DNA of 64,000 nucleotides from Flammeovirga sp. SJP92 (lineage in GTDB: Bacteria > Bacteroidota > Bacteroidia > Cytophagales > Flammeovirgaceae). The stretch lies in NCBI RefSeq assembly GCF_001583495.1, contig NZ_LQAQ01000043.1, positions 1 through 64,000 on the forward strand, given 5' to 3'. The notes under the pieces were generated by a model, which saw only the letters and a list, made by a program, of their open reading frames with translations, had not been told where the DNA came from and did not search any database. Shown in pieces: positions 1-38,426 of the stretch; position 1 is the stretch's first letter; each line of letters begins with the position of its first letter. Made by a program: the position numbers and the translations under genes.

Positions 1-2392
1 TACTAACGTTCGGTAGGGTAGAGATGAGGATGACATTATGATCATAGAGTGCTGTTTCCACTCTGACTGTCCAGGGGTAGTCGAAGATTTTCTCCCATGT
101 TTTCATTTCATCAGAACTTCTCCATAAACCACCATCGTTAATACCACTTTTCTTGCATCCAGCGGTGATATAGGCATTTCCTTTTTTATCAAAATGGATA
201 TCATTAATACCAAATGCACCTGAAATTTCCTTTGTAGAACCTACTTTTTGCCAAGTGTCACCGCTATCTTTTGATTTAAAAAGACCGCCATTTTTATTTT
301 GAACGGTAGCGAAAAGGACATTAGCTTTTTTAGGGTGAGTGGCGATGGCAGAAACGTCAGGGTCAATTGGAAGACCGTTATTGATACTTTCCCATGTATT
401 ACCGCCGTCTTTGGAACGGTGTATTCCAAAACCCGTTTGAGAATCGCCCACATACTCTAAGCCTCTCGCATTTTTTGGAACATGGAAATACATGATATCA
501 GGGTTTTCAATATTGAAAGTGATATTCAATTGATGAACAGACTGATCTCCACCGTGTGCTTTCACATCCCATTTCGGTATAGCTAAGCCATGTGAATGCC
601 ATGTTTTACCTGCATCCGTTGTTCTAAATAATTCTCCTCTGTTATGTTGTCTAAAGAACAGTGCGTATCTGATATTCGTATCGTTAGGATGAATAGCGAA
701 AGTACTTAAAGATTGCTCATGTTCAGTGAATTTATGTACAGAGGCCGATTGTGCACCTTTTCTGATTTCTTTACCAAGGTCATTGGTGATCCAAAGGCTA
801 TTTTCACCTGCCGCACAAAATACTTGATGAGGCAATTCGGGATGTTGGTAGAAACCGTGTCCTGGAAGGTTGGAATTACCACCTCCAACATAATTTCCAT
901 TGCCGATTTCTATATCATCAATATCTACCCACGTGTCTCCTTTGTCATAAGAAAACAATGAAATTTTGGCCATTTGTGTATGTAGAATACTTCCATCACA
1001 ATTAAAACGAACAAAGTTACAGCCCTTTCGATCATAAGGATCTCTTGCCATCCATCTTTTGAGGTATTTCAGATCAATATTATTACCAATCGGATTTTTT
1101 CTTTTTGTCCAATAGTCAGCATCTTTTGAATCAGCTTCCCAGTTTTGTCCATTTCTAAACGTTACAAACCAATGTTTCCCTCCATCTTTTGTTCTCCAAA
1201 GTTGACCAGGCATAAAATTATTTCTTGAGGCATTGGAGTACTCATTATTGACATAAATATTGTTGATGTCATTGGGGTCCACTTCTATGGTATTGAATCG
1301 TTGTGTGATAGCAGAAGGTAATTCGGGGAATGCCATTTTAGCCTCTTTATCCTTCATTCCGAAATAATAGGCAACTGCATGATAGTAGCTTTTCATGATC
1401 GATGAAATTGGCTTGAATTGTCGCATATCAATGGCAATATCTCCACTGATATTCACCCAGCTTTCACCTTCATTATCACTTCTGAAAATACCCCCTTTAT
1501 CATCTTTTACAGTCTTTCCATCTTTCTTCCAAGTGATATTGTTGATCACAAATAATGTGAGCTTTTTTGTCTTGGAATCATAGTGATGTGTGAAACTTCT
1601 CATCACTTCATGTCCTAAACCTTTTGATTTTTGTTGCCATGTTTTCCCACCATTTGTTGACTTATAGAAGCCTCTATTGGTACTTGCATAGATGGTTTTT
1701 GAAGCGTTAGGATCTACCAAAATTGATTCTACTTCCGTCTTAGGATGAATACCGTTGACAATCAGCTTCCAAGTTTTTCCACCGTTTGTCGTCTTGTAAA
1801 TTTGCCCTTGACTTTTGGGGTGAATATTAGCACCATGAGGTTTTAACTGAGGAAATAAAGCCCTGCCGAGTTCTCTCATTTTACCTCCGCCTACATACCA
1901 AACTTGATCGTCTTTTGGATCGACGGTGATACAGGCCATGAATTTTTTATCAAACTGAGGTTCAAGTATGTTCTGCCAAGTTGCCCCTTTATTATGTGTT
2001 ACATAAATGCCATTGTTGTTTCTGTCTGTACAAAAGCCGAAGTCAGGATTTTGCCTTGAAAAATCAACGCTTCTAAACTCTCTAGGTCCTCTCAAACCTT
2101 CATTTAGGCCAGGACCATCGGGATCTAATACACTTTCATACGTAAAACCGCCATCTGTAGATCGATAGGAGTTTCCCATATTTGGACCAATAAAAAGTAC
2201 TTTTGGATCTGTTGGGTGCCAAAAGGCGGATTTATTGTTGCCACTCATTCCCGGACCAAATTGATACCATTGATAGGAGGGGTCAGATGCGACATCTTTT
2301 TCTTTTAGAGAATGGAAAAAGTGCTCCCTATCTTGCCCGAAGCAAGACAGAGAACACACCATCCATAGGATTGGATAGAGTATTTTTTTCAT
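1..2392 (-). CDS. Asp-box beta-propeller (VPS10/sialidase-like) secreted protein, 3' end outside window
   Basis: The frame is open from an ATG at 2392 to the window edge (797 codons). I checked it at both ends and near 830 and saw no frameshift. The N-terminus MKKILYPILWMVCSLSCFGQ looks like an exported signal peptide. The next residues (QFGPGMSGNNKSAFWHPTD, then FIGPNMGNSYRSTDGGFTYE) align along the whole visible length with the downstream-numbered gene at 2395-5991, so the two are tandem paralogues. Repeated S-x-D-x-G-x-T-W Asp boxes indicate a multi-bladed propeller. Unlike its paralogue it has no N-terminal CBM-like module. Only 2 bp separate the genes, so they are probably cotranscribed from the SusC operon. 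The catalytic function is unknown. GH74, sialidase-like or lyase activity are all possible by fold. Whether a T9SS domain exists cannot be seen here. Confidence 0.85.
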   Translation of the reverse strand, partial: MKKILYPILWMVCSLSCFGQDREHFFHSLKEKDVASDPSYQWYQFGPGMSGNNKSAFWHPTDPKVLFIGPNMGNSYRSTDGGFTYESVLDPDGPGLNEGLRGPREFRSVDFSRQNPDFGFCTDRNNNGIYVTHNKGATWQNILEPQFDKKFMACITVDPKDDQVWYVGGGKMRELGRALFPQLKPHGANIHPKSQGQIYKTTNGGKTWKLIVNGIHPKTEVESILVDPNASKTIYASTNRGFYKSTNGGKTWQQKSKGLGHEVMRSFTHHYDSKTKKLTLFVINNITWKKDGKTVKDDKGGIFRSDNEGESWVNISGDIAIDMRQFKPISSIMKSYYHAVAYYFGMKDKEAKMAFPELPSAITQRFNTIEVDPNDINNIYVNNEYSNASRNNFMPGQLWRTKDGGKHWFVTFRNGQNWEADSKDADYWTKRKNPIGNNIDLKYLKRWMARDPYDRKGCNFVRFNCDGSILHTQMAKISLFSYDKGDTWVDIDDIEIGNGNYVGGGNSNLPGHGFYQHPELPHQVFCAAGENSLWITNDLGKEIRKGAQSASVHKFTEHEQSLSTFAIHPNDTNIRYALFFRQHNRGELFRTTDAGKTWHSHGLAIPKWDVKAHGGDQSVHQLNITFNIENPDIMYFHVPKNARGLEYVGDSQTGFGIHRSKDGGNTWESINNGLPIDPDVSAIATHPKKANVLFATVQNKNGGLFKSKDSGDTWQKVGSTKEISGAFGINDIHFDKKGNAYITAGCKKSGINDGGLWRSSDEMKTWEKIFDYPWTVRVETALYDHNVILISTLPNVS

Positions 2393-2394
2393 TT

Positions 2395-5300
2395 TTATTC
2401 TTTTAGGAATTTGAAATGTTTTTGATCGTTTTGTGTTTCAACAACAAGCAGATACATTCCTCTAGGGAGTGATTCTGTGTTGATGACTAACTTATTATTA
2501 TTGATAAATTGATTGCAATTATGAAGCTGACCATTGATATCAAATACAGTGGCATTTTGAAGGTATTCAATAGAATAATTTCCTTTAACATAGATTTTCC
2601 CAGAAGTAGGATTGGGATAAACAACCCAGTTAATGTCAATTTCAGTCGGAAGGTTTAAAGGTTCTTCAATGACAGAAACTGAGGTCATGGATTCTATTTC
2701 TGAACCTTTCAAACGAGCATAGATAGTAGTTGCACCTTCACCTTTTCCTTTCACTTTACCTGAAGTAGAAACAGTCGCTACACTTTCATCCTCACTAAAG
2801 TATTCAATACCTCTGAAGTAGGCGTTTTCTGGATAAACTACAGCTTTCAAAAGCTTTGTTGATCCGGGTTGGATTTCAATATTTTCTTCCTCAAAATAAA
2901 TCATTTCTGGTTCGATGATTTCTTCAGTATTCAAAGCCATGTACCAACCACTTCCATAGGTAGAAGCATAGTATTTTCCAGGTATAAATTGATCTATAGC
3001 AATATCATTTACTCTATCAGATTGACCATTTCCAGTATTGATTTTCTCCCACGTACCACCGGCGTCTTTTGATAAATAAACCCCAGCATTTCTTCTATTA
3101 ATAGTAGTGTTGGCCAAAGTAGAAACCATAATGACATTAGGATCATATTGGGCAATTTCAACACGGTTGGTCCATGGGTAATCAAATATTCTATTCCATG
3201 TTTCCATATTGTCTTCACTTACCCAAAGTCCACCATCATCAGCACCTCCATTTTTTGAACCTGAAGTGATGTATACTTTTCCGTTACTGAATCGAATGTC
3301 ATTGATGCCAAATGATTTTGAAATGTCTAAGGTAGAAGCCACTTTTTCCCATGTTGTACCTTGGTTTTCTGATTTGTACAAACCGCCATTGGAATGTTGA
3401 ACGCAGGCATAAATTGTGGTGGTTTTATCAGGGTCTAATGCAATTCTTGTAACATCAGGCTCATTGGGTAAACCACTATTGACCTCTTGCCAATTCACGC
3501 CTCCATCCGTAGATCTATGAACACCAAAACCTGTTACAGAATTACCGACAAACTCAATGTTGTTGGCTCTCTTTGGAACACAAAAATAAAGATTGTCAGT
3601 ATCGTTAGGATCAATGGTTAATTGCATTTGATGTACAGATTGATCACCACCTCCTTCTGCAATTTCCCATTCTGGAATAGCCACACCAATTGCTTCCCAA
3701 GTTGTACCAGCATCCAATGATCTTAAGCATTCTCCTCTGTGGTGTTGTCTAAAGAATAAAGCATAATGTTTGTCGGTATCATGGGGATCAATGGCATAAG
3801 AACTAATCGATTGCTCTGCATCAGTGAGGGATTTATATTGGGCTGCTTGAGCTCCTTCTCTGATATGATTTCCTTCGTCATTGGTGATCCAAAGAGAGTT
3901 TTCGCCTGCCATACAATACACCTCATTTAAGTCTGGGTGCTGGAAGAAACCATGTCCTGGAACATTGCTGTTTCCTGCTCCAACAAAATTATTTGAATTG
4001 GGCGTCACTTCAATATCATCTATGTCTACCCAAGTATCACCTTTATCATAAGACATCAATGAAACTTTAGCCATGTTGGCATGTAAAACCGTTCCGTCAG
4101 CACTAAAACGGGCAAAGTTGGTTCCTTTTCTTTCATAATCATCACGCACCATCCAATGCTTCAAGTAGTTAAGGCTGATATTGCTTCCCATAGGATTTCC
4201 TCTTCCTTCCCAATAGCTTTTGTCAGGAGAGTCGCTTTCCCAGTTTTTACCATTTCTTAGTGTGATGTACCAATGCTCACCACCATCTTTTGTTCTCCAA
4301 AGTTGTCCAGGTTTAAAGTTGTTTTTTGAAGCATTTGAATATTCATTGTTTAGGTAAATATTGTCCACATCATTCGGATCAACTTCTATGGTATTAAAAC
4401 GCTGTGTAATCTTTGTGGGAAGATTAGGATACTGTGCTACAGCATCATTATAGGAAAGTCCAAAAAAGTGTGCTACAGTGTTATAGTAGCTTTTTTTAAT
4501 GCCAGTATTTGATTCAAATTGGGTTAAATCCAATGCTAAATCACCATTGATTTTTTCCCAAGTTTCTCCTCTGTCTGTACTTTTGAAAATACCACCACCA
4601 GCATCTGTGACCGTTTGTCCATCTGCTTTCCAAACAATATCATTGATCACAAAAAGAATGTATTTGTTGGTGTTTTTATTATGAAAATAGGTCATGGCTC
4701 TCATCACATCATGATCAAAACCTTCCGTCTTTTTGACCCAGTTTTTACCACCATCTGTACTTTTATAAAAACCACGGTTTGTACTTGCAAATACGATAGA
4801 AGAATTCTTAGGATCTACCAAAACGGTTTCAACTTCCGTTTTAGCATGGATACCATTATTCATCAATGTCCAAGTCACACCTTTATCAATACTTTTCCAA
4901 ATCTTCCCTTGGCTAGCAGGATCAATATAAGTGCCGTGAGGATTGCTTTTAGGGAATAATACTCTACCAAAATCACGCATTTTTCCTCCACCAGCATACC
5001 AAATATCTTCATTATTCGGATCAACACAGACTGAAGAAACATAAACCCCATCAAAAGGATCACCATTGATCAGTTGCCACGTTTTTCCTTTGTTGACTGT
5101 TTTATAAATCCCAATATTTCGTCTATCCGTAGCAAAACCAAAATCAGGATTTTGTCTTGAAAAATCAATGCTGTAAAGTTCTCTAGGGCCACGTTCACCC
5201 GTATCCATTCCACTTGCATCAGCATTAAGCATGGATTCATACGTATGTCCTTTATCTTGAGTCCTGTATACGTTACCCATATTAGGACCGATAAAAAGTG

Positions 5301-5991
5301 TGTTTTCATCTGTCGGGTGCCAGAAAGCTACTTTATTATTGCCACTCATCCCTGGACCAAACTGCGTCCATTTAACATTAGGGTTTGAGGTGACTGTTTT
5401 GGTTTTAAGATCTTGGAAGAAATCATCTCCAAGTTTCTTGACTAAAAAATTATCGAATAATAATTCTCCTTTTCCGGAGGAGTGAGGGTGAAAAGAAAAA
5501 AGTACATAGCCATTAGGGTCACTAACAGAGGGAGTAAAGCTGAACTTGACTTGTACCCAATCTGTACTTTCTAATGCATCTATATTCACTTGACCAATCT
5601 TAGTACCATCGGCCGAGAAAAATTTAATATTCGAATTACGATTATCTGTTGCGTTTAATGATTTGTAGTAGAAAGAAACTTTATAAACTTTACCTTCTTC
5701 CCATTGTATATTTTTGAAAGTAGTAAAGTTACATTTTTGACCTGTAGCATTGAATTTAATCCTACAACTGTAATTCCCTTCAAATTGATCCGAATTGTAT
5801 CTTTCAAAAATGGGTAAACCATTGTATATACTCGATTCCCATTCGGTATCTACGTCGTTTTCAAACCCTGAGAAAAACAAGGTTTTAGGGTCAGATGTAG
5901 TAAGTGTAGCAAGTTGAATTCCATCATCGCTCCAAACAAAAGAGAGTGAAGCCAATGATAGTAGTATAAGTAATAAGTATTTCTTTTTCAT
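2395..5991 (-). CDS. CBM + Asp-box beta-propeller + Big2 protein with T9SS sorting domain
   Basis: 1198 residues. A Sec signal peptide (about 1-21) is followed by a jelly-roll CBM4/9-like region (about 35-190, beginning LFFSGFENDVDTEW). A long propeller region (about 195-1035) carries at least ten Asp boxes, for example KSTDGGKNW, KSTDRGETW, RSTDGGVNW and LSKDAGGTW. A Big2-like Ig domain (about 1037-1112) and a type A T9SS sorting domain (about 1122-1198, starting VVYPNPTSGKIYV) complete it. It should be secreted and attached to the cell surface. VPS10/sialidase-like propellers include GH74 xyloglucanases and sialidases, but I do not recognise the diagnostic sequences of either. In this locus it may be the glycan-cleaving or glycan-binding surface enzyme. 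It sits 214 bp below the SGBP-like gene, across a REPIN, and its paralogue starts 2 bp further on. Confidence 0.85.
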   Translation of the reverse strand: MKKKYLLLILLSLASLSFVWSDDGIQLATLTTSDPKTLFFSGFENDVDTEWESSIYNGLPIFERYNSDQFEGNYSCRIKFNATGQKCNFTTFKNIQWEEGKVYKVSFYYKSLNATDNRNSNIKFFSADGTKIGQVNIDALESTDWVQVKFSFTPSVSDPNGYVLFSFHPHSSGKGELLFDNFLVKKLGDDFFQDLKTKTVTSNPNVKWTQFGPGMSGNNKVAFWHPTDENTLFIGPNMGNVYRTQDKGHTYESMLNADASGMDTGERGPRELYSIDFSRQNPDFGFATDRRNIGIYKTVNKGKTWQLINGDPFDGVYVSSVCVDPNNEDIWYAGGGKMRDFGRVLFPKSNPHGTYIDPASQGKIWKSIDKGVTWTLMNNGIHAKTEVETVLVDPKNSSIVFASTNRGFYKSTDGGKNWVKKTEGFDHDVMRAMTYFHNKNTNKYILFVINDIVWKADGQTVTDAGGGIFKSTDRGETWEKINGDLALDLTQFESNTGIKKSYYNTVAHFFGLSYNDAVAQYPNLPTKITQRFNTIEVDPNDVDNIYLNNEYSNASKNNFKPGQLWRTKDGGEHWYITLRNGKNWESDSPDKSYWEGRGNPMGSNISLNYLKHWMVRDDYERKGTNFARFSADGTVLHANMAKVSLMSYDKGDTWVDIDDIEVTPNSNNFVGAGNSNVPGHGFFQHPDLNEVYCMAGENSLWITNDEGNHIREGAQAAQYKSLTDAEQSISSYAIDPHDTDKHYALFFRQHHRGECLRSLDAGTTWEAIGVAIPEWEIAEGGGDQSVHQMQLTIDPNDTDNLYFCVPKRANNIEFVGNSVTGFGVHRSTDGGVNWQEVNSGLPNEPDVTRIALDPDKTTTIYACVQHSNGGLYKSENQGTTWEKVASTLDISKSFGINDIRFSNGKVYITSGSKNGGADDGGLWVSEDNMETWNRIFDYPWTNRVEIAQYDPNVIMVSTLANTTINRRNAGVYLSKDAGGTWEKINTGNGQSDRVNDIAIDQFIPGKYYASTYGSGWYMALNTEEIIEPEMIYFEEENIEIQPGSTKLLKAVVYPENAYFRGIEYFSEDESVATVSTSGKVKGKGEGATTIYARLKGSEIESMTSVSVIEEPLNLPTEIDINWVVYPNPTSGKIYVKGNYSIEYLQNATVFDINGQLHNCNQFINNNKLVINTESLPRGMYLLVVETQNDQKHFKFLKE

Positions 5992-6205: not shown

Positions 6206-7684
6206 TTAATGTTGAGAGAACACAAGGTGATCTACTAACAATTGTGGTGTTTCATTTGCTTCTGCAATGAAGTCAAACTGTACATTAGCATTAATGAATT
6301 CTTTGGAAATTGGCTCATTAGAGAAGTACGTGATTTTCACCCATTCACCATCTACCAATTGATCTTGGAAAGTTTTATTCATTGAACTACCCGAATCTTC
6401 ATCCTTCAATGTCACTTTTAAAACTCTGATGTTTCCAATGGCTTTAGCATAGAACTCAAAAGTATAATTGTATTCTGAAGTGATAGGGAAATAGCCCTCC
6501 GTCATCTCGATCGTTAGCTTTGATCCATTACCATTATTGTGCTGATAAGGTTCAAAATCAACTTGTAGATAATGATCGCCGTCCACTGCTGTACTACCAT
6601 CTTTAATGACAGACATTCCACCAGAACCTACCCATTTTCCATCATTGAATGGAGCGTAAGTACCGTTTTCAAAACTTCCATTCGTGAAGAAATTATGCTG
6701 ATAACCTTCTACCTCTTTGTCTGTAAATTCCTCCAGTTTCACACCATCAACAGATTGTACATCTCCGCTTTGATTGGCATGCGTGTAAGTCACATATAAC
6801 TTTGAGAAAGTAGGATCAACAAATAGAATTAAAGTATTATTTACTTCACCTGATGGGGCTAAATGATTAATTGCTATTGTGTTTCCATTTGCATCTTTGA
6901 TAGAGAAATTATTGATAGTGTTGTCGTTGATTTCATCCAAATCTAAATCTCTATTGAATTTTACAAAAATGTTTCCTTCTTCACTTTGTGTCATTTGATC
7001 CACTCTGAATGGGATTGTTGAAGGAACAACTTCAATTAAGCTATTTTTATAAAGCGTGCTGGCCGTTCCTTTTACAGGTTCTTTACGAGAAGCTGTAAGA
7101 CCAATGTCATAAATTCCAGGTTTCACAAACTCCATTCTTGCCACTGAATCAGTAAAGTTTTGATCTAAAGATGTATGCCATTTGAAGGTGTCAGGAGATC
7201 CTTTGCTTGTACTTTTGAAATTGACAAAAGCACCTGATTCCATAATGTATTTTCCGTTGGAAATAATATAATCACCCTCTACATCAATTACTTCAAAATC
7301 AGTAGTAATAGCTGAATCATAAACGGTTACATAGAATGTAGTATCGTAGTTTAATTCTTCATTACCAAAATCTAACTTGATTTTTACGGGTACAACACCT
7401 GTATTTTTAAATCTTACATGAGCGATATGTTCTGTTAATACAGTATCATCATTGTTGGTGAAATACGATGGTCCATCAATGGTCCATTCTCTAACATATT
7501 CACCTCTGGATGCATCTGTGAAAGAGAAATTTCCCCCCACAGTAGTAACAAGATCATTGGGATCAGATTCTGTACTGAAAACGTAGATATCTGTGATTTT
7601 ATCATACTCAAAGTCCGGCCTACAAGAGAAGGCTGTCATTAAGCAGAAAAGTATCGTAAAGATGTTTGTTCCTTTTAATTTCAT
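6206..7684 (-). CDS. SusE/F-like surface glycan-binding lipoprotein with PKD-like and CBM-like domains
   Basis: 492 residues with a lipoprotein signal (MKLKGTNIFTILFCLMTAFS before Cys21). The N-terminal half is built of PKD/Ig-like beta domains, including a stretch resembling KPGIYDIGLTASRKEP. The C-terminal part (about 325-490, starting FFTNGSFENGTYAPF) resembles a CBM4/9-type jelly roll. No catalytic motif is visible. It lies 11 bp downstream of susD. In Bacteroidota PULs this position is typically taken by an outer-membrane glycan-binding protein that works with SusCD, and I infer the same here. The ligand cannot be predicted. A promoter is unlikely between susD and this gene because of the spacing. 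Confidence 0.75.
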   Translation of the reverse strand: MKLKGTNIFTILFCLMTAFSCRPDFEYDKITDIYVFSTESDPNDLVTTVGGNFSFTDASRGEYVREWTIDGPSYFTNNDDTVLTEHIAHVRFKNTGVVPVKIKLDFGNEELNYDTTFYVTVYDSAITTDFEVIDVEGDYIISNGKYIMESGAFVNFKSTSKGSPDTFKWHTSLDQNFTDSVARMEFVKPGIYDIGLTASRKEPVKGTASTLYKNSLIEVVPSTIPFRVDQMTQSEEGNIFVKFNRDLDLDEINDNTINNFSIKDANGNTIAINHLAPSGEVNNTLILFVDPTFSKLYVTYTHANQSGDVQSVDGVKLEEFTDKEVEGYQHNFFTNGSFENGTYAPFNDGKWVGSGGMSVIKDGSTAVDGDHYLQVDFEPYQHNNGNGSKLTIEMTEGYFPITSEYNYTFEFYAKAIGNIRVLKVTLKDEDSGSSMNKTFQDQLVDGEWVKITYFSNEPISKEFINANVQFDFIAEANETPQLLVDHLVFSQH

Positions 7685-7695
7685 TTTACTTCAAT

Positions 7696-9351
7696 TTATA
7701 GGTTAGGATTAGAAAGTACTTCGTCAATTGGAATAGGGAAGTAGTTGTGATAATCTGGCGTATAACTCGCAGAAGCATCTTGGAATTCTTGTATTACTGC
7801 TTCACCATTTGGCCCCTCAGTGGCATCTTCAGGTAATTCATACAAGATCTGCTTATTCATGTAGTATTTCTTTTTCGCTAAACGATCATATTGCTCTTTG
7901 ATCACACCCCATCTTCTCATGTCAATCCAGCGCGTATCATGACCTTCAAACATCAATTCCAATGGTCTTTCAACATACATGATATGATCCATTAGTTTTT
8001 CCGCTGTATTGTACTCATTGTGGTCCAAAGGCATTACTGCCGAACGCGTTCTGATTCTGTTGATATAATGCACAGCTTCGAAAGTACCGGCACTACCGTT
8101 ATTTTTGATCAAGCATTCAGCATATAATAAATAAACATCAGCCAAACGGATCACTCTTTCATTAATTCCTGAAACAGTTTTTGTACCCAATGCTTCGTAT
8201 TCATCCCACCAATTCTGGAATTTTCTCAAGTAAGAAGACTCTTGGTTTTTGAAAGTTCCGTGTACATCTCTTGGTTCTTTTTGGTAATAATCAAAATCAT
8301 CATCCGCCATTACAATAGAATATTGTGAACGTAAAGAATGTGTTAAACCATCATTTCTAGGGTCAGTTGGGTCCATTTCATCTTTTTGGAAAAGCATTGT
8401 GATCCAGTAAGATGGCATAGATAAGCGGTTGCCATTGGCTCCACTTGGCGCTAAGAAAACACCTCTTCTTGTCCCTTCAGTACCTGTAGGTCCATCAACA
8501 ATAACTCCACCACCATTTGGTTTTTGAGTGTCTGAGAAAGAGACTTCAAAGATAGATTCAGAATTGAATTCATGTTCTTTATCAAAGTTCCAACTGATAT
8601 CTGAAGTCAATTGATATAAATCTTCTCTATCAATGATCATTTTGAATTCATTCTGTGCTTTTACGTACTCATGTTCATTGATATACACCTGACCTAAAAA
8701 AGCAGTAGCGGCACCCCAAGTAGCTCTTCCTTTGTACTTGTCTTCCCAAGTTTCAGGTAATCTCTCTTGAGCATAAGTCAAATCACTGATGATCAATTCA
8801 AGTACCTCTTCTTTAGGGCTCAATGGCTTCGCAATTTCTTCCTTATTCTGTGCTACAGTAGTATGAAGAATTACGGAACCATGATTATAAGTACTATACA
8901 ACCAATAGTAGCAAATACCTCTAATAAAGTGTGCCTCCGCCAAGAATAATTCTCTCGACTCATCACTGATTTCAATGATGTCCGGCACTCTATCCAACAC
9001 CTGATTAGCTCTAAGTATTGTCGTATACAGATCAGCCCATTTCAGTTTTACAATACCTGTATTGTCGTTGATAAGTAGCTTTGAAAGCTCTACATATTGG
9101 TCGTTCCAAATACTCGGGCGACCAATATCAGACCTTGTAGGCATTTGAGCGGCAGAGTTGCCTCCCATTGAACCGTGATTTTGTAAACCACTGTACGATG
9201 CCATCAATCCCATAAATGCTTCTTGTTCATTTTGCCAGAACTCACGCTCTTCTATGGTATTTTTATTTTCTATGTCAAACCAATTCTGACACCCAAAAAG
9301 AGCGAAAGTAATCAGTAATCCTATATTTATTTTTATTAGATTTTTCATCAT
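7696..9351 (-). CDS. SusD/RagB family nutrient-binding outer-membrane lipoprotein
   Basis: 551 residues with a lipoprotein signal ending ITFALFGC and followed by QNWFDIENKNTIEEREFW, the usual SusD opening. TPR-like helical segments include LFLAEAHFIRGICYYWLY. The C-terminal part has the SusD-family signature region, for example RVIRLADVYLLYAECLIKN and LMFEGHDTRWIDMRRWG. SusD lids the SusC transporter at the outer membrane and captures oligosaccharides. It begins 8 bp after susC stops, so the two are cotranscribed. Length and order are typical, and nothing is truncated. Met1 and Met2 are adjacent (MMKNL), so the start could be at 9351 or 9348. Confidence 0.95.
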   Translation of the reverse strand: MMKNLIKINIGLLITFALFGCQNWFDIENKNTIEEREFWQNEQEAFMGLMASYSGLQNHGSMGGNSAAQMPTRSDIGRPSIWNDQYVELSKLLINDNTGIVKLKWADLYTTILRANQVLDRVPDIIEISDESRELFLAEAHFIRGICYYWLYSTYNHGSVILHTTVAQNKEEIAKPLSPKEEVLELIISDLTYAQERLPETWEDKYKGRATWGAATAFLGQVYINEHEYVKAQNEFKMIIDREDLYQLTSDISWNFDKEHEFNSESIFEVSFSDTQKPNGGGVIVDGPTGTEGTRRGVFLAPSGANGNRLSMPSYWITMLFQKDEMDPTDPRNDGLTHSLRSQYSIVMADDDFDYYQKEPRDVHGTFKNQESSYLRKFQNWWDEYEALGTKTVSGINERVIRLADVYLLYAECLIKNNGSAGTFEAVHYINRIRTRSAVMPLDHNEYNTAEKLMDHIMYVERPLELMFEGHDTRWIDMRRWGVIKEQYDRLAKKKYYMNKQILYELPEDATEGPNGEAVIQEFQDASASYTPDYHNYFPIPIDEVLSNPNL

Positions 9352-9359
9352 TAGTAGTT

Positions 9360-12300
9360 TTAGAATTGTAATGAAAGACCTGCTCTGTAAGTAGCGGCAA
9401 CAGGATATTTACCTGTGTCAACACCACGATAGAAGACATTTTTTGAACCGACCTCTGGGTCGTAACCTGTATAATTTGTAAACACAAATGGATTTTGAGC
9501 ACTTACATACACTCTGAAATTATTGATGCCCAATTTGCTTACCGTTTGCTGTGGAAGAGTATAACCAAAAGTGATGTTTTGGATTTTCAAATAAGAACCA
9601 TCTTCTAAGAAGAAATCAGAATAAGTCCTGATGTTCATGTGAGATGAACTTCTTCTTGGAGTAGGGATATCTGAAGTAGGGTTCTCAGGTGACCAAGCGT
9701 TCACCAACTCTTTACTTGTCTTTTGCTGATGTGCATAAGCTCTTGGTCCGTTATAGATTTTAGCGCCATAAGAACCAAACAGCATCACGCTCAAATCAAA
9801 ACCTTTATAACCTAACGCTATTGAAAGACCTGCTTCCCAAAGTGGTGTACCGCTTCCTTGATATATTCTATCGTCTTGACCGATTTCACCGTCACCATTT
9901 ACATCCACATATTTCAAGTCACCGATTTTGGCAGTAGGAATCATTTTTTGATATTCAATTAATTCTTCTTCCGTTTTAATAGTTCCATCCGTTGGAATTA
10001 AGAAAAATGCACCTGCTTCATAACCTGGAATTAAGAAAGTAGTAGGTTCAGAAGAGTTGCCTAATGGACGTCCACCCGGAACGGATTCCATGGTAGGAGC
10101 CAAAGCAGTTACTTCGTTGAAGTTTCTAGTGAACGTACCATTTACAGTCAGTTTCAGTTTATTGATATGTGTATTATACCCTAATCCCAATTCAATACCT
10201 TGGTTGGTTAAGTTACCCACGTTTTGCCACATTTTATTGTAGCTTCCTGTGATGGTACCTCCTGCTGAAGGTGGAAGTTCTACAGGCAATAACATGTCTT
10301 TCTTCTCAGATCTATATAAATCAAAATTAAAGAAGAAACGACCAGAAAATAACTCACCATCTAAACCGATGTTTTGTGAAATGTTGGTTTCCCAAGTGAT
10401 GTTTTCATCCACATAAGTAGGATTCGTGGCACCAGGGTAAAGAATATCATTTTCACCAATTCCTAATACATAATCGACTTGTGGTGTAATGATGGAAACG
10501 TAAGGTAAATCAGCAATTAAGTTACCCAAACCTTGGCCTGCTTTATCGCTACCTGTTTCACCATAACCGGCTCTAAGTTTTAAATTACTGATGGTTGGTT
10601 TTAAAGCGTCAAAGAATTTTTCCTCACTGATGTTCCAACCTGCTGAGAACGACTTGAAGTTACCCCAGTTGTTGCTTGGATGGAATCTTGAAGAGCCGTC
10701 TCTACGAATACTCGCACTGACCATATATTTACCAGCGTAGCTATATTGCACACGACCTAATAAACCAATGTTAGAACTTGCCGCATAACGTTGATCTACT
10801 CCTCTGATATCTTGGGCTACGCCAAGGTTAGGAATATTGTTTGGCATATTCATGGCGTGTACCATACGTCTGTTGGCCTCAGCCGTTTCCCAAGTATTAC
10901 CTGCTAATAGACTTACATTATGTTTACCCCATTTTTTATTATAAGTGGCAGTATATTCTTGAATAGTTCTTAAGTTGAACGTATCAATAAAGCGAAGCTC
11001 ATTTAATGGTTTTGAAGCACGAGTAATGTACTCTCCATTGTTGCTGTAAACATCGAAAGTAGGGCTAAACCAATAATCATTCGTAGTGGAGTAAGAACCA
11101 CCAATGTTGGCATTCAGCTTTAGTCCTTTCAACACTTCATAAGTGATTTTAGCATTACCATTATAATTGTTACCCGTAGTTTCATTCGTTTCATTGATAC
11201 GCGCCAATAGGTTGGTCATTCTCTCAGGGTTCGCTCCTTCAATCACATATTCATCATTTCTGCTGATACCCGCTCTGTAAGGATCTTGACGAAGTGCTTG
11301 ATATTGAATATTATTCGGAGGGTTATCCTTATAGCTGTTTTGGTAACCCATATTGATTTGCACCTTCAATTTATTCTTTTCAAAAGTGGTATTCGCTCTC
11401 AACGTTTTTCTTTGATACGCCGAAGAAATTTGAATGCCCTGCTGATCAAATAAAGTACCGACAATCGAATACGTTAGGTTTTTTGAACCACCAGACAATC
11501 TCAATGAATGGTTTTGAATAGGGGCCATATCTACCTGAAGTTCTCTTAGCCAATCCGTATTGTAATGCATCGCATTCGGGTTGTTGTCCAATGGATTGGG
11601 AGTACTAGGATCACCTTTCCACATTAGGTGGTTGATATACATGGCGTCAGTTGTATTGGCTAAATGTATGTCAGAAGTGATTTTCTGCACACCGTAGTAC
11701 GAATCCAAAGTCACTGACATTTTTCCTTTTTCACCTCTTTTTGTTGTGATCAAAACTACACCCGCCGAAGCTCTTGAACCATAGATAGCCGCTGAAGCAC
11801 CATCCTTCAATACCTCAATGGATTCGATTTCCTGAGGAGCAATATTAGGATTGGTCGTATACGTCACACCATCCACTACATAAAGCGGTTCAGAACCTCC
11901 TTCTTGGAAAGAAGAAACACCTCTAATTGTAATTGTAGCATTTTCACCTGGAGCACCAGACTCAGAACTTACACTTACACCCGCCATTTGTCCCTGAATC
12001 GCCGTAGCCAAATCTGAAGTAGCCAAACTGTTGATCTGTTCAGACTTCACTTGTGCCACCGAACCGGTCACTTCACGTTTTTCTTGTTGGCCATAACCAA
12101 TAACAACTACCTCATCCAATGATTCTACATCAAGTTCCATTTGAAGGTTGATCTCTGACTTTTTGCTCACTTCGATTTCAGCAGGCTTATACCCGATATA
12201 TGAATAAACAAGGACACTGCCTTTTTCACTTACCATGATATTGTATCTACCGTCAAAATCAGTGACCGTACCAATTGTCGTTCCTTTAATCAAGACATTG

Positions 12301-12461
12301 ACTCCCGGTATAGGAGCTTGTTCTTCATCTACAATAGTACCGCTTACCTGAAAGGTTTTTTGAGCATAGAGTTTTGAGGTCATTCCAAGAGTAAATAGAA
12401 TACCTAGCAAAAACATTTTCCGAAATAGAAGTTGATAAATTACTGATAATTTTCTTTTCAT
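9360..12461 (-). CDS. SusC/RagA family TonB-dependent outer-membrane transporter
   Basis: 1033 residues. After a signal peptide ending SKLYAQ comes a carboxypeptidase-regulatory-like domain (about 38-110, FQVSGTIVDEEQAPIPGVNV). The SusC TonB-box/plug region follows (LDEVVVIGYGQQEKREVTGS), then the plug (SGAPGENATITIRGVSSF) and a 22-strand barrel ending in aromatic residues (YRAGLSLQF). It imports oligosaccharides with energy from TonB-ExbBD, capped by SusD. It is the first gene of the minus-strand PUL operon. The neighbouring HTCS gene lies 261 bp upstream on the same strand. The start codon overlaps ATGAAATGA, and a TAGCTTTG minus-7 element lies 31 nt upstream. Confidence 0.95.
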   Translation of the reverse strand: MKRKLSVIYQLLFRKMFLLGILFTLGMTSKLYAQKTFQVSGTIVDEEQAPIPGVNVLIKGTTIGTVTDFDGRYNIMVSEKGSVLVYSYIGYKPAEIEVSKKSEINLQMELDVESLDEVVVIGYGQQEKREVTGSVAQVKSEQINSLATSDLATAIQGQMAGVSVSSESGAPGENATITIRGVSSFQEGGSEPLYVVDGVTYTTNPNIAPQEIESIEVLKDGASAAIYGSRASAGVVLITTKRGEKGKMSVTLDSYYGVQKITSDIHLANTTDAMYINHLMWKGDPSTPNPLDNNPNAMHYNTDWLRELQVDMAPIQNHSLRLSGGSKNLTYSIVGTLFDQQGIQISSAYQRKTLRANTTFEKNKLKVQINMGYQNSYKDNPPNNIQYQALRQDPYRAGISRNDEYVIEGANPERMTNLLARINETNETTGNNYNGNAKITYEVLKGLKLNANIGGSYSTTNDYWFSPTFDVYSNNGEYITRASKPLNELRFIDTFNLRTIQEYTATYNKKWGKHNVSLLAGNTWETAEANRRMVHAMNMPNNIPNLGVAQDIRGVDQRYAASSNIGLLGRVQYSYAGKYMVSASIRRDGSSRFHPSNNWGNFKSFSAGWNISEEKFFDALKPTISNLKLRAGYGETGSDKAGQGLGNLIADLPYVSIITPQVDYVLGIGENDILYPGATNPTYVDENITWETNISQNIGLDGELFSGRFFFNFDLYRSEKKDMLLPVELPPSAGGTITGSYNKMWQNVGNLTNQGIELGLGYNTHINKLKLTVNGTFTRNFNEVTALAPTMESVPGGRPLGNSSEPTTFLIPGYEAGAFFLIPTDGTIKTEEELIEYQKMIPTAKIGDLKYVDVNGDGEIGQDDRIYQGSGTPLWEAGLSIALGYKGFDLSVMLFGSYGAKIYNGPRAYAHQQKTSKELVNAWSPENPTSDIPTPRRSSSHMNIRTYSDFFLEDGSYLKIQNITFGYTLPQQTVSKLGINNFRVYVSAQNPFVFTNYTGYDPEVGSKNVFYRGVDTGKYPVAATYRAGLSLQF

Positions 12462-12722: not shown

Positions 12723-15700
12723 TTATTCTGTTTTTGCATCTTCAACTTCCTCTTCTTTTTTCTTTTTATTGCGTAAGAAATGAGAAGGCGGAACACCAAA
12801 TTCTTTCTTGAAACAGTTTCTGAAATATTTCAAATCACTAAATCCAACCTCATAGGTGACATCACTTACACCATACCTTCCCATTTTCAGTAATTGCGCG
12901 GCCCTTTTTAATCGGATATTTCGAATAAAGATTTTGGCCGTTTGTTCCGTCAATGCTTTTAATTTTTGATTCAATCGGAGAGGAGTAGTGCCATATTCAT
13001 AAGCCAACTTCTCAACGGTAAACTTAGGGTCAGAAATATTCTCCTCTACAATCGCTACCAAACGGTTCAAGAAGCGTTCATCGATGGAAGTAAAGGTCAC
13101 TTCACTTGGTTGCGTATCAATGTTTGTTCTAAAATTCTTTTGCAAACGTCTTCTATTTTCCACCAAAGTATTAATTCTCGCCATCAATACTTCTGTATTA
13201 AAAGGTTTGGTAACATAAGCATCCACGCCATATTCATAACCTTTTAGTTTACTGTCGCTTGAATTTTTGGCAGTAAGCAAAATGATCGGTAAATGACAAA
13301 CTTGTGCATCTTCACGGATTTTCTTAGTCAATTCATAACCGTCCATCACCGGCATCATGATGTCAGAAAGAATTAGATTTGGCATTACTTCTTTGGCCAA
13401 TTGGAATGCTTTTTCTCCATCTTCAGCCTTATAGACCTTGAAAGTATCTTTTAATAATTCATACAAAAGGTCTAGAATAGCAGGGTTGTCGTCTGCAATA
13501 ACAATTTTCGGTTTTGTAGTCAAACTTAATTCCTCTTCTTGAGCCGTTAACTCTTCTTCTTCCTCGCTTTCAATCATTAAGGTCTCTTCAGGAAGGGCCT
13601 CTATTTTGACGTCATTTTCATAAGCCACTTCATTGAGTGGGAATTTGATTTTGAACGTTGAACCTGCATTTTTCTCGCTTTCCACTTCAATGGTTCCATG
13701 ATGCAATTCCACTAAACTTTTAGTGAAAGACAATCCAATACCTGTTCCTTCGCTTTTACCTTTGGATTTAGAGTGATTTTCCACTTGATAAAAGGGTTCG
13801 AATAAATATTTTAAATGATCTTCTGAAATACCAAAACCCGTATCTTTCACTTCAATCACCACATCTTCATACTCTTGCTGAATAGTTAATTTCACCTGTC
13901 CAGCATAAGTAAATTTAAAGGCGTTGGATAATAGGTTATTCAGTATTTTTTTGAGTTTATCTTGATCAAAATAACCTTGAATAGAGTGTGTTTTGATGTC
14001 CAATGTGAAATCAACACGTTCATGATTGGCAAATTCCTTAAAAGAATGATAAATCTGCTCTGTAAATAATACCCAATCACCTTCTTTTACTTGAAGGGCT
14101 GTATGTCCTTGTTCCATCTTTCTGAAGTCCAGAAGTTGGTTGACAAGATTCATTAAGTGATTGACATTTTTATGAATCAACTTATAATATTTCTCTTTCT
14201 CCAAAGAGGAATAAGCACTTCCCTTACTAATAAGCTGTTCGATAGGTGTATGAATCAACGTCAAAGGCGTTCGCAATTCATGAGAAATATTAGTGAAGAA
14301 TTGCAACTTCATTTGGCTCAAATGCTCCAGTTTTTCTCTTTCAAATTGTTCTAATTCTAATTGATGTCTCTTTTTGACAGTAATCAGTGAGAACCTAGAG
14401 AAAAGGTAAACAAAGAAAATAATCGCTATAGCGTATAAGATTTTCGCCCAAACAGTAGCCCACCAAGGTGACGCAATTTCTAAGTCTAAGAACAATGATT
14501 TTGGATTCCAAATATTATCTCCATTGGAGGCTTTTACTTCTAAAGTGTAACTGCCTGGAGATAAGTTGGTGTATTTTGCAATTCTAAAATCAGCATCCGT
14601 TGTGATCCAATCCTTATCAAAACCATTCAGTTTATATTTGTATTTGTTTTTATAGGGAGAACCAAAATGCAAACCCGCAAACTGAACAGCAAAGCTATTT
14701 TGATCATGGTTCAGTTTTATACTCTGCGTATATTGTATGTTTTTACTCAAAATTGTATTGCCATCCAAAGTGTCATTGACATGGATAGTTTGGTTCAATA
14801 CGCTCAATTCAGTAAAAACAAGATCTCCGACCAAATAGTCATCAACAATCTCATGAGGAGTGAAATAATTGACACCATTGACACCGCCAAACATCAAATC
14901 ACCATTTTTTAATTTACACGAAGCCAAATCACTGAATTCATTATCCTGAAGGCCGTCACTGATATTGTAATTTTTGATTTCTCTAGAATCTAAATTGATT
15001 TTGGTGATGCCATTATTACTACTGATCCAAAGGTTTTGATAATCGTCTTCCAAAATCGATTTAATGATATTACTAGGAAGTCCATCTTTGATTGTGATAT
15101 GTTCAAAATTGATCTCCTCATCTTTGACATTTTCCGGGTTGAAAATACTTAATCCACCACCCATTGTCCCAATCCATATCTCACCATTGGAAGCTTCAAA
15201 AACAGGTAAAACATAATTGTAAGAAAGACTATTACTTTGGTTAGGTTGATTTTGATACAACTCAAATTCAGGTTTTTCTTTCAATTTTTGATCTTTAGGA
15301 ATGAAGACCAAACCTTGTGAAGAGCCAACCCAGAGGTTGCCATAGCTATCAATCAAAATACTACGAATCAGTTTCACTCTTTCATTTTTAAGGTCTTTCT
15401 GATTTGTAACACTCGTCCACTCAATTTTATTCCCTTTTTTAATGCCTCTAATTAAGCCATCTCCATATGTACCCAACCATATCACATTATTGCCATCACT
15501 TTTAATGGCAAAAGCAGGCGCATCTTCATTTTCTGTCAAAAGGTCTTGAGCAGTGATATCCTTTAGTTTTTCAAGGTTAAGATCAATATCGAGGTTATAC
15601 ACTTTTCCTTTTTTACGAATACCAATAATGAGTTGATCACCCCATTCCGTAATATCAAAAGTGGTATTGGTTTTTATTTTTTCAAAAGTCAATTTTTTAT

Positions 15701-16916
15701 AACCATGATCTAAGCCTTCAGTGCTGTTTTCAAGGACATTCAATGAACCACCTTGCGTACCAATCCAGATTCTGTTTTTACTGTCTTCGTAAATGGATCT
15801 GATTTTATTATATGAAATACTTGATTTGTCATTAGTTTTATAGATGTCTTTAAATCGTTTACCATTGGGATTGTATTTGATGATACCGCCTCCTTTAGTG
15901 CCAATCCAAATTACGCCTAACTTATCTTTAAACACTTCTGTAATGATGTTGATTTTTAGTGCATCAAAATTATCACTATGAATATGCTTTTTCTTGACAT
16001 AGGTTCCACTAACTTCATCATATTCCATAAAAAACAAACCTTTTCTAGTCCCGCCTAGCATGTGTTTGTTAGGATCAATACAGAGTGTATTAAAACGTTC
16101 TGTTGAAACTTTTCTCAGTGTTGATCTTTCTTCATTAAAAAGATACACGCCGTGTGGGCCACAAAAAAAGACGCCTTCTTCAGATTCCTTAATATCTTTG
16201 ATCGGTGTGACTTTTGCTTTTGAGATTTCTTTGAAACTATAAGAAGGCTGATTGTTGGAAGGTTTAATAGCGATTTGTAACCCCTTTTTCGTTCCTACCC
16301 ATAAGTTCCCATTTCTATCATTGAAAAGTTTAGCTACGTGATTGGATATGATGCTTTTAGAATTGTGATGATTGGCGTAATATTTTTTAGCCTTGAATTT
16401 ATCTTTAGTCAATTCCTCTGTTGGAATGCAGTTGAGACCTTTTGTAGTTCCTACCCATAAGTTACCGTCCTCATCCAATGCTAACGAATGAACATTGTTA
16501 GAACTAAGTATTTTTGATCCTTCTGTATTTCGAAAAGAAGTCATTTCACCTGTCTCCAAATTCAAACGGCAAATCCCAGAATTCAGTAATCCTATCCAAA
16601 GATTATTGTATTGATCTTCTTGAAAACAACTAATGATATTAGACGTCAATTGATGGGTGTCCATACTATAGTTTGTGAAATTGTAACCGTCAAATCTACT
16701 AATTCCGGCGTTGGTTCCAAACCACATCAAACCCTTGCTGTCTTGATAAATACTCGTAATATCATTTTGCACTAAACCGTTTTTTGTAGAGTACCATTGT
16801 ATGTCAAAGACGATCTCATTTTCCTGGGCAAAAGATATATGCGAGAAAAATGAAAGTAGTAATAGGGTAATTTTAGCAATTATAGTCCTGTTGATGACGG
16901 AGTAGTTGTTTTTCAT
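12723..16916 (-). CDS. Hybrid two-component system sensor histidine kinase/response regulator (HTCS)
   Basis: 1397 residues. A signal peptide is followed by a periplasmic sensor of Reg_prop propeller blades (for example DSKGLMWFGTNAGISRFDGY and DEDGNLWVGTTKGL). A Y_Y_Y domain (about 735-810) and a membrane segment (about 820-845) come next. The cytoplasmic part has a HisKA helix with phospho-acceptor H879 in NISHELRTPL, an HATPase domain (NNLLSNAFKFT, DTGFGI, GTGIGLS), and a receiver domain with D1185 in LSDIMMPVMDG and the KPF lysine. It ends with an AraC DNA-binding domain (about 1275-1385). All catalytic residues seem present. An acidic linker rich in Glu separates HATPase from receiver. 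HTCS proteins sense PUL oligosaccharides in the periplasm and switch on adjacent susCD. It heads the PUL, upstream of susC on the same strand. Confidence 0.95.
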   Translation of the reverse strand: MKNNYSVINRTIIAKITLLLLSFFSHISFAQENEIVFDIQWYSTKNGLVQNDITSIYQDSKGLMWFGTNAGISRFDGYNFTNYSMDTHQLTSNIISCFQEDQYNNLWIGLLNSGICRLNLETGEMTSFRNTEGSKILSSNNVHSLALDEDGNLWVGTTKGLNCIPTEELTKDKFKAKKYYANHHNSKSIISNHVAKLFNDRNGNLWVGTKKGLQIAIKPSNNQPSYSFKEISKAKVTPIKDIKESEEGVFFCGPHGVYLFNEERSTLRKVSTERFNTLCIDPNKHMLGGTRKGLFFMEYDEVSGTYVKKKHIHSDNFDALKINIITEVFKDKLGVIWIGTKGGGIIKYNPNGKRFKDIYKTNDKSSISYNKIRSIYEDSKNRIWIGTQGGSLNVLENSTEGLDHGYKKLTFEKIKTNTTFDITEWGDQLIIGIRKKGKVYNLDIDLNLEKLKDITAQDLLTENEDAPAFAIKSDGNNVIWLGTYGDGLIRGIKKGNKIEWTSVTNQKDLKNERVKLIRSILIDSYGNLWVGSSQGLVFIPKDQKLKEKPEFELYQNQPNQSNSLSYNYVLPVFEASNGEIWIGTMGGGLSIFNPENVKDEEINFEHITIKDGLPSNIIKSILEDDYQNLWISSNNGITKINLDSREIKNYNISDGLQDNEFSDLASCKLKNGDLMFGGVNGVNYFTPHEIVDDYLVGDLVFTELSVLNQTIHVNDTLDGNTILSKNIQYTQSIKLNHDQNSFAVQFAGLHFGSPYKNKYKYKLNGFDKDWITTDADFRIAKYTNLSPGSYTLEVKASNGDNIWNPKSLFLDLEIASPWWATVWAKILYAIAIIFFVYLFSRFSLITVKKRHQLELEQFEREKLEHLSQMKLQFFTNISHELRTPLTLIHTPIEQLISKGSAYSSLEKEKYYKLIHKNVNHLMNLVNQLLDFRKMEQGHTALQVKEGDWVLFTEQIYHSFKEFANHERVDFTLDIKTHSIQGYFDQDKLKKILNNLLSNAFKFTYAGQVKLTIQQEYEDVVIEVKDTGFGISEDHLKYLFEPFYQVENHSKSKGKSEGTGIGLSFTKSLVELHHGTIEVESEKNAGSTFKIKFPLNEVAYENDVKIEALPEETLMIESEEEEELTAQEEELSLTTKPKIVIADDNPAILDLLYELLKDTFKVYKAEDGEKAFQLAKEVMPNLILSDIMMPVMDGYELTKKIREDAQVCHLPIILLTAKNSSDSKLKGYEYGVDAYVTKPFNTEVLMARINTLVENRRRLQKNFRTNIDTQPSEVTFTSIDERFLNRLVAIVEENISDPKFTVEKLAYEYGTTPLRLNQKLKALTEQTAKIFIRNIRLKRAAQLLKMGRYGVSDVTYEVGFSDLKYFRNCFKKEFGVPPSHFLRNKKKKEEEVEDAKTE

Positions 16917-17650: not shown

Positions 17651-17848
17651 AAAATAAGAGAGTATGAAATTAATGAAAACACTTTCGCTGTCTGTTATGT
17701 GTGCATTGGGTGCTTGCCAAATGCAACCAAAACAGCAGGAACTAATCCTTTAAAAAATAAGAGAGTATGAAATTAATGAAAACACTTTCGCTGTCTGTTA
17801 TGTGTGCATTGGGTGCTTGCCAAATGCAACCAAAACAGCAGGAACTAA
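17643..17848 (+). repeat. Perfect 103-bp tandem duplication spanning the start of the GH29 gene
   Basis: 17643-17745 and 17746-17848 appear identical base for base. Each copy carries TCCTTTAAAAAATAAGAGAG, the ATG and the lipoprotein signal-peptide codons. Because 103 is not a multiple of three, the first copy reads out of frame with the gene and stops at 17753. A recent slippage or recombination event is likely. An assembly artefact is also possible. Confidence 0.9.
17664..17753 (+). pseudogene. Orphan 29-codon lipoprotein leader ORF created by the tandem duplication
   Basis: The ATG at 17664 has the same upstream sequence as the true GH29 start at 17767. It encodes 29 residues (MKLMKTLSLSVMCALGACQM, then nine more) and ends at TAA 17751-17753, 13 bp before the real start codon. 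It contains the complete lipobox LGAC, so a tiny acylated peptide could be made. It could also act as a translated leader that affects initiation of the downstream gene. More simply it may be a non-functional remnant. Confidence 0.6.
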
Positions 17849-19368: not shown

Positions 19369-19370
19369 CC

Positions 19371-19466
19371 GTTGAGGTTGTACCATGTGTCTACTCTCCA
19401 TATGCATTTATCCACAAATTGTGTCTATCCATATTTCGAATTGGGTAGACACATGGTTTCCTCAAC
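19371..19466. repeat. Inverted-repeat (degenerate REPIN-like) hairpin between the two GH29 genes
   Basis: The left arm at 19371-19394 (GTTGAGGTTGTACCATGTGT then CTAC) pairs with the right arm at 19445-19466 (GTAGACACATGGTTTCCTCA then AC), apart from a two-base bulge and mismatches. The CATGTGTCTAC core resembles the REP unit at 6172-6200. It starts 2 bp after the fucosidase stop and may protect or end that transcript. Confidence 0.65.
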
Positions 19467-19491
19467 GTAACTGATCTAAATATGATATGAA

Positions 19492-22155: not shown

Positions 22156-22353
22156 TGATTGAGATGATGAATTCATTTTTTTAATCTGTATTTTAGACTT
22201 CCTAACGAAAAGACTTACAGGGTATTTTTACTAAGAATTAGGGGTAAATAACAATTATTGGTTCCTATTCAATGTCTACTAATTACATGATAAAGAAGTG
22301 AATAGATAATTTTGATCATTCTCAAACATGAAATGAATGTATACTTATTAAGC

Positions 22354-29575: not shown

Positions 29576-29583
29576 TAGCTTTG
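29576..29583 (+). promoter_or_regulatory. Minus-7 promoter element of the sulfatase gene
   Basis: TAGCTTTG here is identical to the proposed susC minus-7 box. It ends 30 nt before the chosen sulfatase ATG, against 31 nt at susC. The shared sequence and spacing support both assignments. Confidence 0.5.
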
Positions 29584-29613
29584 GAACAAATCGAATTTAT
29601 AAATGCAGTTGAA

Positions 29614-36752: not shown

Positions 36753-36763
36753 TTTATTTAATT

Positions 36764-38416: not shown

Positions 38417-38426
38417 AAGTTAGATT

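Follow-up and report, generated by a model that had tools for sequence, protein, structure and literature searches.

What opens the polymer in a polysaccharide utilization locus (PUL) whose recognisable enzymes are all of the exo type? The question is raised by a 64,000 nt stretch of DNA from Flammeovirga sp. SJP92 (assembly GCF_001583495.1, contig NZ_LQAQ01000043.1, positions 1 to 64,000 of the forward strand), hereafter the window, which begins at base 1 of its contig (C43) in a genome of 8.5 Mb. Two tandem genes at that end, here called G1 and G2, encode large Asp-box proteins that an original prediction had put forward as candidates for an uncharacterised family of backbone-cleaving propellers. 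The family does have enzyme relatives: by predicted structure and profile comparison it is a double propeller related to the GH74 xyloglucanases. We hold, with somewhat better than even confidence, that G1 and G2 are secreted, GH74-related proteins made of two Asp-box propellers in tandem, and that they cut a sulfated algal glycan in the inter-propeller cleft, most likely inside the chain.

The tandem propeller proteins

Open reading frames, strands and spacing agree with the earlier description of two paralogues of at least 797 and 1198 residues, 2 bp apart on the minus strand behind susC and susD. CBM denotes a carbohydrate-binding module and T9SS the type IX secretion system.

2..2392, minus strand: gene 1 (G1), N-terminal 797 of 859 amino acids (aa), GH74-like double propeller, no appended domains found, cut by the contig and window start
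2395..5991, minus strand: gene 2 (G2), 1198 aa, with signal peptide (by eye), CBM_4_9-like domain, GH74-like double propeller, Big_2 domain and T9SS type A tail
5500..5880, minus strand: CBM_4_9-like domain, G2 aa 38-164 (Pfam E 2e-6, 28.6 bits, cut-off 25.9)
2926..5424, minus strand: double-propeller core, G2 aa 190-1022 (predicted fold and profile alignment)
2716..2895, minus strand: Big_2 domain, G2 aa 1033-1092 (Pfam)
2416..2622, minus strand: Por_Secre_tail/T9SS type A sorting domain, G2 aa 1124-1192 (Pfam, NCBIfam)

The CBM-like, Big2 and T9SS domains predicted for one paralogue were thus recovered in G2 by Pfam. Asp-box-like motifs are indeed abundant, with 10 in full-length G1 (9 inside the window) and 10 in G2, against means of 0.04 and 0.07, respectively, in 2000 shuffles of each sequence. 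Both N-termini look like signal peptides, a judgement made by eye alone. G1 runs into contig C42, whose end shares a 44-base identical overlap with the window start, and the joined frame encodes 859 aa. In Flammeovirga sp. EKP202 (locus L009, 10001-12580) the G1 counterpart is contiguous, also 859 aa long, and 95% identical over the shared 797 aa. The nearest relatives found are from Flammeovirga, at 95-97% identity.

Relation to GH74

The best Pfam match of both proteins was Sortilin-Vps10 (PF15902), with E-values of 8e-33 and 9e-34. The nearest NCBIfam model was NF045728, F510_1955 family glycosylhydrolase, at 125.3 and 113.2 bits, below its cut-off of 175 bits. Asp-box repeats are common to these models and the window proteins, and both models align piecewise, to parts of the propellers; of the 446 positions in the Sortilin-Vps10 profile, the best stretches span about 115. 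Because this match is fragmentary and the sortilin fold ranks far below GH74, the profile search that had been suggested as a check gave no clear match to a non-catalytic family.

When alignment A1, which holds 13 sequences (the window proteins and relatives), was used as a profile, its best matches in the PDB were GH74 xyloglucanases (E 3e-24). Two AlphaFold2 models of G2 agreed with this. For model 1 (predicted local distance difference test score, pLDDT, 68.5; predicted template modelling score, pTM, 0.61) the top 24 PDB fold matches were all GH74, and for model 2 (pLDDT 71.9, pTM 0.70) the top 25 were. Model 2 matched GH74 at E-values of 1e-29 to 5.8e-22, after which the next fold, the highly repetitive propeller 2ymu, followed at 3.7e-15, nearly 7 orders weaker. 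Sortilin structures reached about 1e-13 to 1e-12 with template modelling (TM) scores of 0.15-0.24.

As a GH74 reference, five GH74 genes were taken from Bacteroidota, in which 4 of 296 genomes matched at E 1e-30 or better; the one gene of the five that was checked had GH74 as its best PDB matches. Aligned with hhalign to these five, 34 family members gave a match collinear over both propellers (probability 99.8, E 1.5e-29, 665 columns, 20% identity). A set of 21 members gave a collinear alignment at E 4.8e-27, and the next, shifted, at 4.2e-18. Shifted alignments are expected for propellers.

The family therefore shares with GH74 endo- and exo-xyloglucanases (e.g. PoXEG74, Xgh74A, OXG-RCBH) two tandem Asp-box propellers and a collinear profile match. 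A tandem double propeller like the seven-bladed pair of GH74 is predicted by the fold matches of models of moderate confidence. The family differs from GH74 in sequence, with identities of about 14-16% in fold alignments and 20% in the profile alignment, in having long insertions, and in its sulfatase-rich neighbourhoods. Since identity is only 20%, a separate family within the clan of GH74 is more likely than membership of GH74 itself, as judged from sequence. The xyloglucan hydrolase activity of GH74 is inverting.

Catalytic positions and their conservation

The catalytic residues of the GH74 enzyme PoXEG74 are D70 and D477 (PMC10317168). The PDB title of the GH74 mutant 6mgl reads D60A, in contrast to D70A in that paper. 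On the 6mgj chain the equivalents are residues 38 and 445, 407 further on, within the motifs ARTDIGG and ALGDVSGF, and they align with Asp84 and Asp472 of a Bacteroidota GH74 protein (L068), a correspondence for which the index was counted by hand on the 6mgj alignment. The first site also shows as a D-to-A difference in the Xgh74A chains 2cn2 and 2cn3, aligned with family position 237 (G2 numbering throughout). Sites were mapped in 16 hhalign runs, four subsets of the family by four settings; Asp84 coincided with family position 237 in 13 of them, and Asp472 with position 697, likewise in 13. The residues found there in the window proteins, with a third of interest, are as follows.

5281..5283, minus strand: Asn237 of G2, position of the first GH74 catalytic Asp
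3901..3903, minus strand: Glu697 of G2, position of the second GH74 catalytic Asp
3814..3816, minus strand: Glu726 of G2, candidate replacement carboxylate
2180..2182, minus strand: Asn71 of G1, equivalent of G2 Asn237
803..805, minus strand: Glu530 of G1, equivalent of G2 Glu697
716..718, minus strand: Glu559 of G1, equivalent of G2 Glu726

Position 697 is Glu in all 34 family members, including 13 that were added once the hypothesis had been formed. The catalytic Asp of the second GH74 propeller is thus replaced by Glu, still an acid. It is one of only four core columns acidic throughout the 34 sequences (D258, D/E328, D/E659 and E697). In the set of 21, invariant basic columns were H225, K/R366, R579, K/R597, R748 and K/R983. 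The 13 held-out members were drawn from the 24 listed matches of an Asp-type (D-type) query; three own copies, seven apparent near-copies of members already in the set (from genomes G920, G822 and G847) and one sequence from G879 with two in-frame stops were left out.

Position 237 divides the family, being Asp in 18 of the 34 members and Asn in the other 16. Glu726 is present in 16/16 Asn-type and 0/18 Asp-type members, which have A, M or Q there, and an acidic residue at position 656 (D/E) is distributed in the same way (16/16 vs 0/18). The Asn-type members fall together in a quick tree rooted at its midpoint, in a group that holds G1, G2, a third paralogue from the same cluster, Flavobacterium proteins and others. 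Because Asp is found in GH74 and in two of the family's three clades, Asn at 237 is probably the derived state, and would then represent one change rather than 16. The D-type clades retain a complete acid pair, Asp237 and Glu697. By the secondary structure of model 2, N237 and E697 lie in loops that we take to join strands two and three in blade one of their respective propellers, whereas E726 lies in the loop preceding the first strand of the next blade. In that model all three would be on the face opposite the Asp boxes, given as the active face in PMC2716378.

Structure prediction and the search for conserved acids, which had also been proposed as checks, thus predict a GH74-type double propeller and place conserved acidic residues on GH74 catalytic positions. 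The idea of an uncharacterised catalytic propeller family gains support from this at the family level; for the G1/G2 pair itself the support is only partial, as the classical GH74 acid pair is incomplete where the first catalytic Asp is Asn.

Five distant relatives from metagenome-assembled genomes (MAGs; L014-L018, four titled Gemmatimonas/Gemmatimonadetes and one unclassified) show no more than 21-26% identity and were for that reason kept outside the conservation counts; of these, L014-L017 are in alignment A1. The four aligned relatives (three from Gemmatimonadota, one from the unclassified MAG) lack the GH74-type acids, with Ser or Ala at the first site and His at the second. At loci L014-L018 several large Asp-box proteins are encoded close together, in frames of about 850-1250 aa.

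The gene cluster and its relatives in other genomes

The genes accompanying G1 and G2 in the window are listed below.

6206..7684, minus strand: lipoprotein-like gene after susD, 492 aa, lipobox by eye, no Pfam match, candidate surface glycan-binding protein
7696..9351, minus strand: susD (two NCBIfam SusD models, E 3e-13 and 3e-6, both below curated cut-offs)
9360..12461, minus strand: susC (NCBIfam)
12723..16916, minus strand: hybrid two-component regulator with Reg_prop sensor (Pfam)
17767..21018, plus strand: two GH29 genes, 17767-19368 and 19492-21018 (Pfam)
26769..29261, minus strand: GH2 (Pfam)
29581..31125, plus strand: sulfatase (Pfam)

The exo-type set that had been read from the sequence (GH29, GH2, sulfatase) is therefore in place, with two genes for GH29. 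The accompanying statement that the window has no recognisable endo-enzyme holds for open reading frames of at least 150 aa, which were searched with Pfam (susC and susD with NCBIfam), with one gap of about 400 N-terminal residues in the protein encoded at 22312-26256. The window susD is 30% identical to the Pfam-recognised SusD of a Flavobacterium locus (L012), and the lipoprotein-like protein shows 28% identity over 319 aa to one encoded near family member L067.

Beyond the window, on C42 (L006/L030, about 183.9-190.2 kb), the cluster continues with two genes for sulfatases and one for a third propeller protein, a paralogue of 878 aa, so that it holds three paralogues in all and spans the contig break. 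The sulfatase genes were assigned by similarity, at least one of the two also being a PF00884 match, and some genes between G1 and this group are on the other strand. In strain EKP202 (L009) the same arrangement of two sulfatases and the third paralogue is found on one contig.

With an E-value limit of 1e-20, a G1-type query detected members in 3 of 395 genomes drawn from the phylum and 2 of 395 from the class, both counts including the own genome. With a D-type query and a limit of 1e-60, 10 of the 241 genomes from the order had members; the own genome is among these 10, and all of them belong to its taxonomic family. Among the matches listed, four genomes have several copies each: the own genome five (the G1 tail forms a sixth row), G154 five, and G182 and G571 four each. 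The own genome also holds D-type copies, on contigs C78 and C36. Among plasmids, the G1-type query gave one record with at least 80% query coverage (Persicobacter CP012852), and the D-type query gave two, the second a match of 19.5% identity among the rows shown. On viral contigs, 42 pattern matches to the family were obtained and none was confirmed.

A sulfatase gene lies within 10 kb of the family member at 10 of 14 independent loci from four genomes, among the PF00884 matches listed, where 2.8 would be expected (P 3.8e-5). GH29 was found at 3 of the 14 (0.5 expected, P 0.011). Presence was tallied by hand and the probability computed assuming random positions; the C36 copy (L061), on a 7.7 kb contig, was dropped. 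Other neighbours of members include GH2, GH28, GH140-like, GH42-like and PhoD-like genes. At the D-type loci L026, L060, L062 and L066, genes for GH28, GH29, GH140-like (apiosidase-like) enzymes and sulfatases recur, not every gene being found at each, which suggests a further sulfated, perhaps pectin-like, substrate there.

In Flavobacterium algicola (L012, 9995-15768) the gene directly after the homologue encodes a GH150 lambda-carrageenase. In F. fluviatile (L013, 9995-17138) an IS110-type transposase gene separates the homologue from the GH150 gene, which was assigned by 97% identity. GH150 likewise has a propeller domain (Pfam Beta-prop_CGLA); no CGLA domain was among the Pfam matches of the window proteins at E up to 1. 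A GH150 lambda-carrageenase in the own genome was considered and rejected, as the genome gave no PF25290 match; the same search found none in 14 control genomes and did find matches in G154, G730 and G731.

Proposed mechanism and alternative explanations

The proposal draws directly on the predicted fold relation, on the residue positions and their conservation, and on the operon context. Because of its CBM-like domain and T9SS tail G2 should be exported, and would be held at the cell surface or released, with G1 as a bare propeller core. Cleavage would take place in the inter-propeller cleft, most likely within the chain, and the resulting fragments would be imported by SusC/D and trimmed by the GH29, GH2 and sulfatase enzymes. 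Endo action is suggested by the GH74 relation and by secretion. A sulfated algal glycan is the probable substrate, and the GH29, GH2 and sulfatase genes of the window would fit one that contains fucose or galactose. GH29 also includes L-galactosidases. At the active site the invariant Glu697 would stand in for one GH74 catalytic Asp. In the Asn clade (G1, G2 and the third paralogue) we infer that the second catalytic function would be supplied either by Asn237 with a helper carboxylate or by the clade-specific Glu726. Asn237 would by itself be no bar to catalysis, since GH95 uses Asn as a carboxylate-activated general base (PMC8245568). Taken as a whole, the family is GH74-related and probably glycan-cleaving, and the clade of the window is probably a derived one in which the mechanism was changed or lost. 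It would be a GH74-clan family with a changed catalytic pair.

A number of observations weigh against this proposal. Both window proteins have Asn at the first GH74 catalytic position, and we met no reported activity for any family member. Model 2 has TM scores by query of 0.56-0.59 with GH74 (0.61-0.68 by target) and of 0.49 with Gemin5, a double propeller of no relation, so that the fold alone is not decisive. Confidence in the AlphaFold2 models is moderate, and it is low for residues 690-729, which include Glu697 and Glu726 (block means 31-59). The site mapping failed for the first position in the D-type B clade, in three local modes in which the first propeller was shifted, and for the second in the L061 clade, also in three local modes. 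All 13 held-out members are from genomes within the taxonomic family of the window and are not independent of the earlier ones. Four of the 14 loci had no sulfatase in the 7.6-9.9 kb examined on each side, and two of these (L027 and L029) lacked any recognised PUL-type neighbour, a single L027 neighbour having been scanned with Pfam. Finally, a dedicated GH150 endo-enzyme adjoins the homologue at L012 and L013, so the homologue need not be the backbone cleaver there.

In an alternative explanation the Asn clade, both window proteins included, would consist of catalytically dead glycan binders whose old cleft grips sulfated chains and presents them to SusC/D, the enzymes being the D-type members elsewhere in the genome. 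This explanation seems to us rather doubtful, although it has several facts in its favour. The catalytic Asp has become Asn in 16/16 members of the clade, a GH74 D70A mutant served for a ligand complex (PMC10317168), D-type copies are available in the own genome, and the two members next to GH150 belong to the Asn clade. A mere binder, however, would not need Glu697 to be kept as Glu, nor the acids at 726 and 656 that separate the two types without exception, and the Asn base of GH95 shows another way to read the substitution. We find it improbable that the family comprises polysaccharide lyases acting on uronic-acid-containing sulfated glycans with a scaffold like that of PL24 and PL25. Those ulvan lyases are indeed seven-bladed propellers (PMC12915356), a glucuronate isomerase (UxaC) gene accompanies GH2- and GH29-like genes at L025, and a gene with an Alginate_lyase2 domain lies near L033; yet the match is throughout to the double propeller of GH74, with acids at hydrolase positions.

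Very improbable, in our estimate, is a non-enzymatic Asp-box propeller of the Vps10/sortilin or YCF48 kind, with no role in carbohydrate use. It would account for the best Pfam match and for the existence of distant relatives without the acids. Sortilin-Vps10 is, however, a single ten-bladed propeller with 10CC domains, for which no separate search was made, and the fold of the window proteins does not fit it, the E-values given above being accompanied by TM scores of 0.15-0.24 as opposed to 0.56-0.68 for GH74. The PUL context and the conserved acid also speak against it.

Sulfated algal glycans are likewise opened by PL24/PL25 ulvan lyases, the FdlA fucoidan lyase, PL40 and GH195. Compared with the predicted GH74-type double propeller of the window proteins, PL24 and PL25 are seven-bladed propellers and PL40 is a toroid (PMC12915356), while GH195 is related to GH99 (PMC13063451). 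An FdlA-type fucoidan lyase was rejected as a candidate, as FdlA is a beta-helix (PMC9410043), unlike the propeller fold predicted here.

Returning to cleavage by a GH74-related propeller, a more far-reaching version can be offered tentatively, as a possibility well short of even. It would describe a new GH74-clan glycoside hydrolase family, patchy in marine Bacteroidota, that opens sulfated algal glycans, and in which the window clade relocated a catalytic carboxylate: Asp237 of the N-terminal propeller became Asn, and Ala/Gln/Met726, on the neighbouring blade of the second propeller, became Glu, with the fold kept. No paper describing the family was found in the open-access literature as far as it was covered, and the family may already carry a CAZy number. 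Carbon stored in sulfated seaweed glycans is broken down slowly, and PUL annotations often lack the enzymes that open these polymers; if the proposal is true, a GH74-clan family hidden under sortilin or BNR repeat names would fill such a gap. The two active-site types, Asp and Asn, would offer a direct test of how a propeller hydrolase loses or moves a catalytic acid.

Other genes of the window

Between the GH29 and GH2 genes, 22312-26256 on the plus strand encodes a protein of 1314 aa that has a T9SS tail in addition to seven aBig_2 domains. Its first 400 or so residues have no Pfam match, and in the PDB only the Ig-like part (to an arabinanase) and, weakly, the tail are matched. The unmatched N-terminal part could hide another catalytic domain. 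Further on, 34293-40733 (minus strand) holds a separate cluster of GH94, a major facilitator superfamily (MFS) transporter and GH3, apparently a beta-glucan disaccharide pathway unrelated to the propeller pair.

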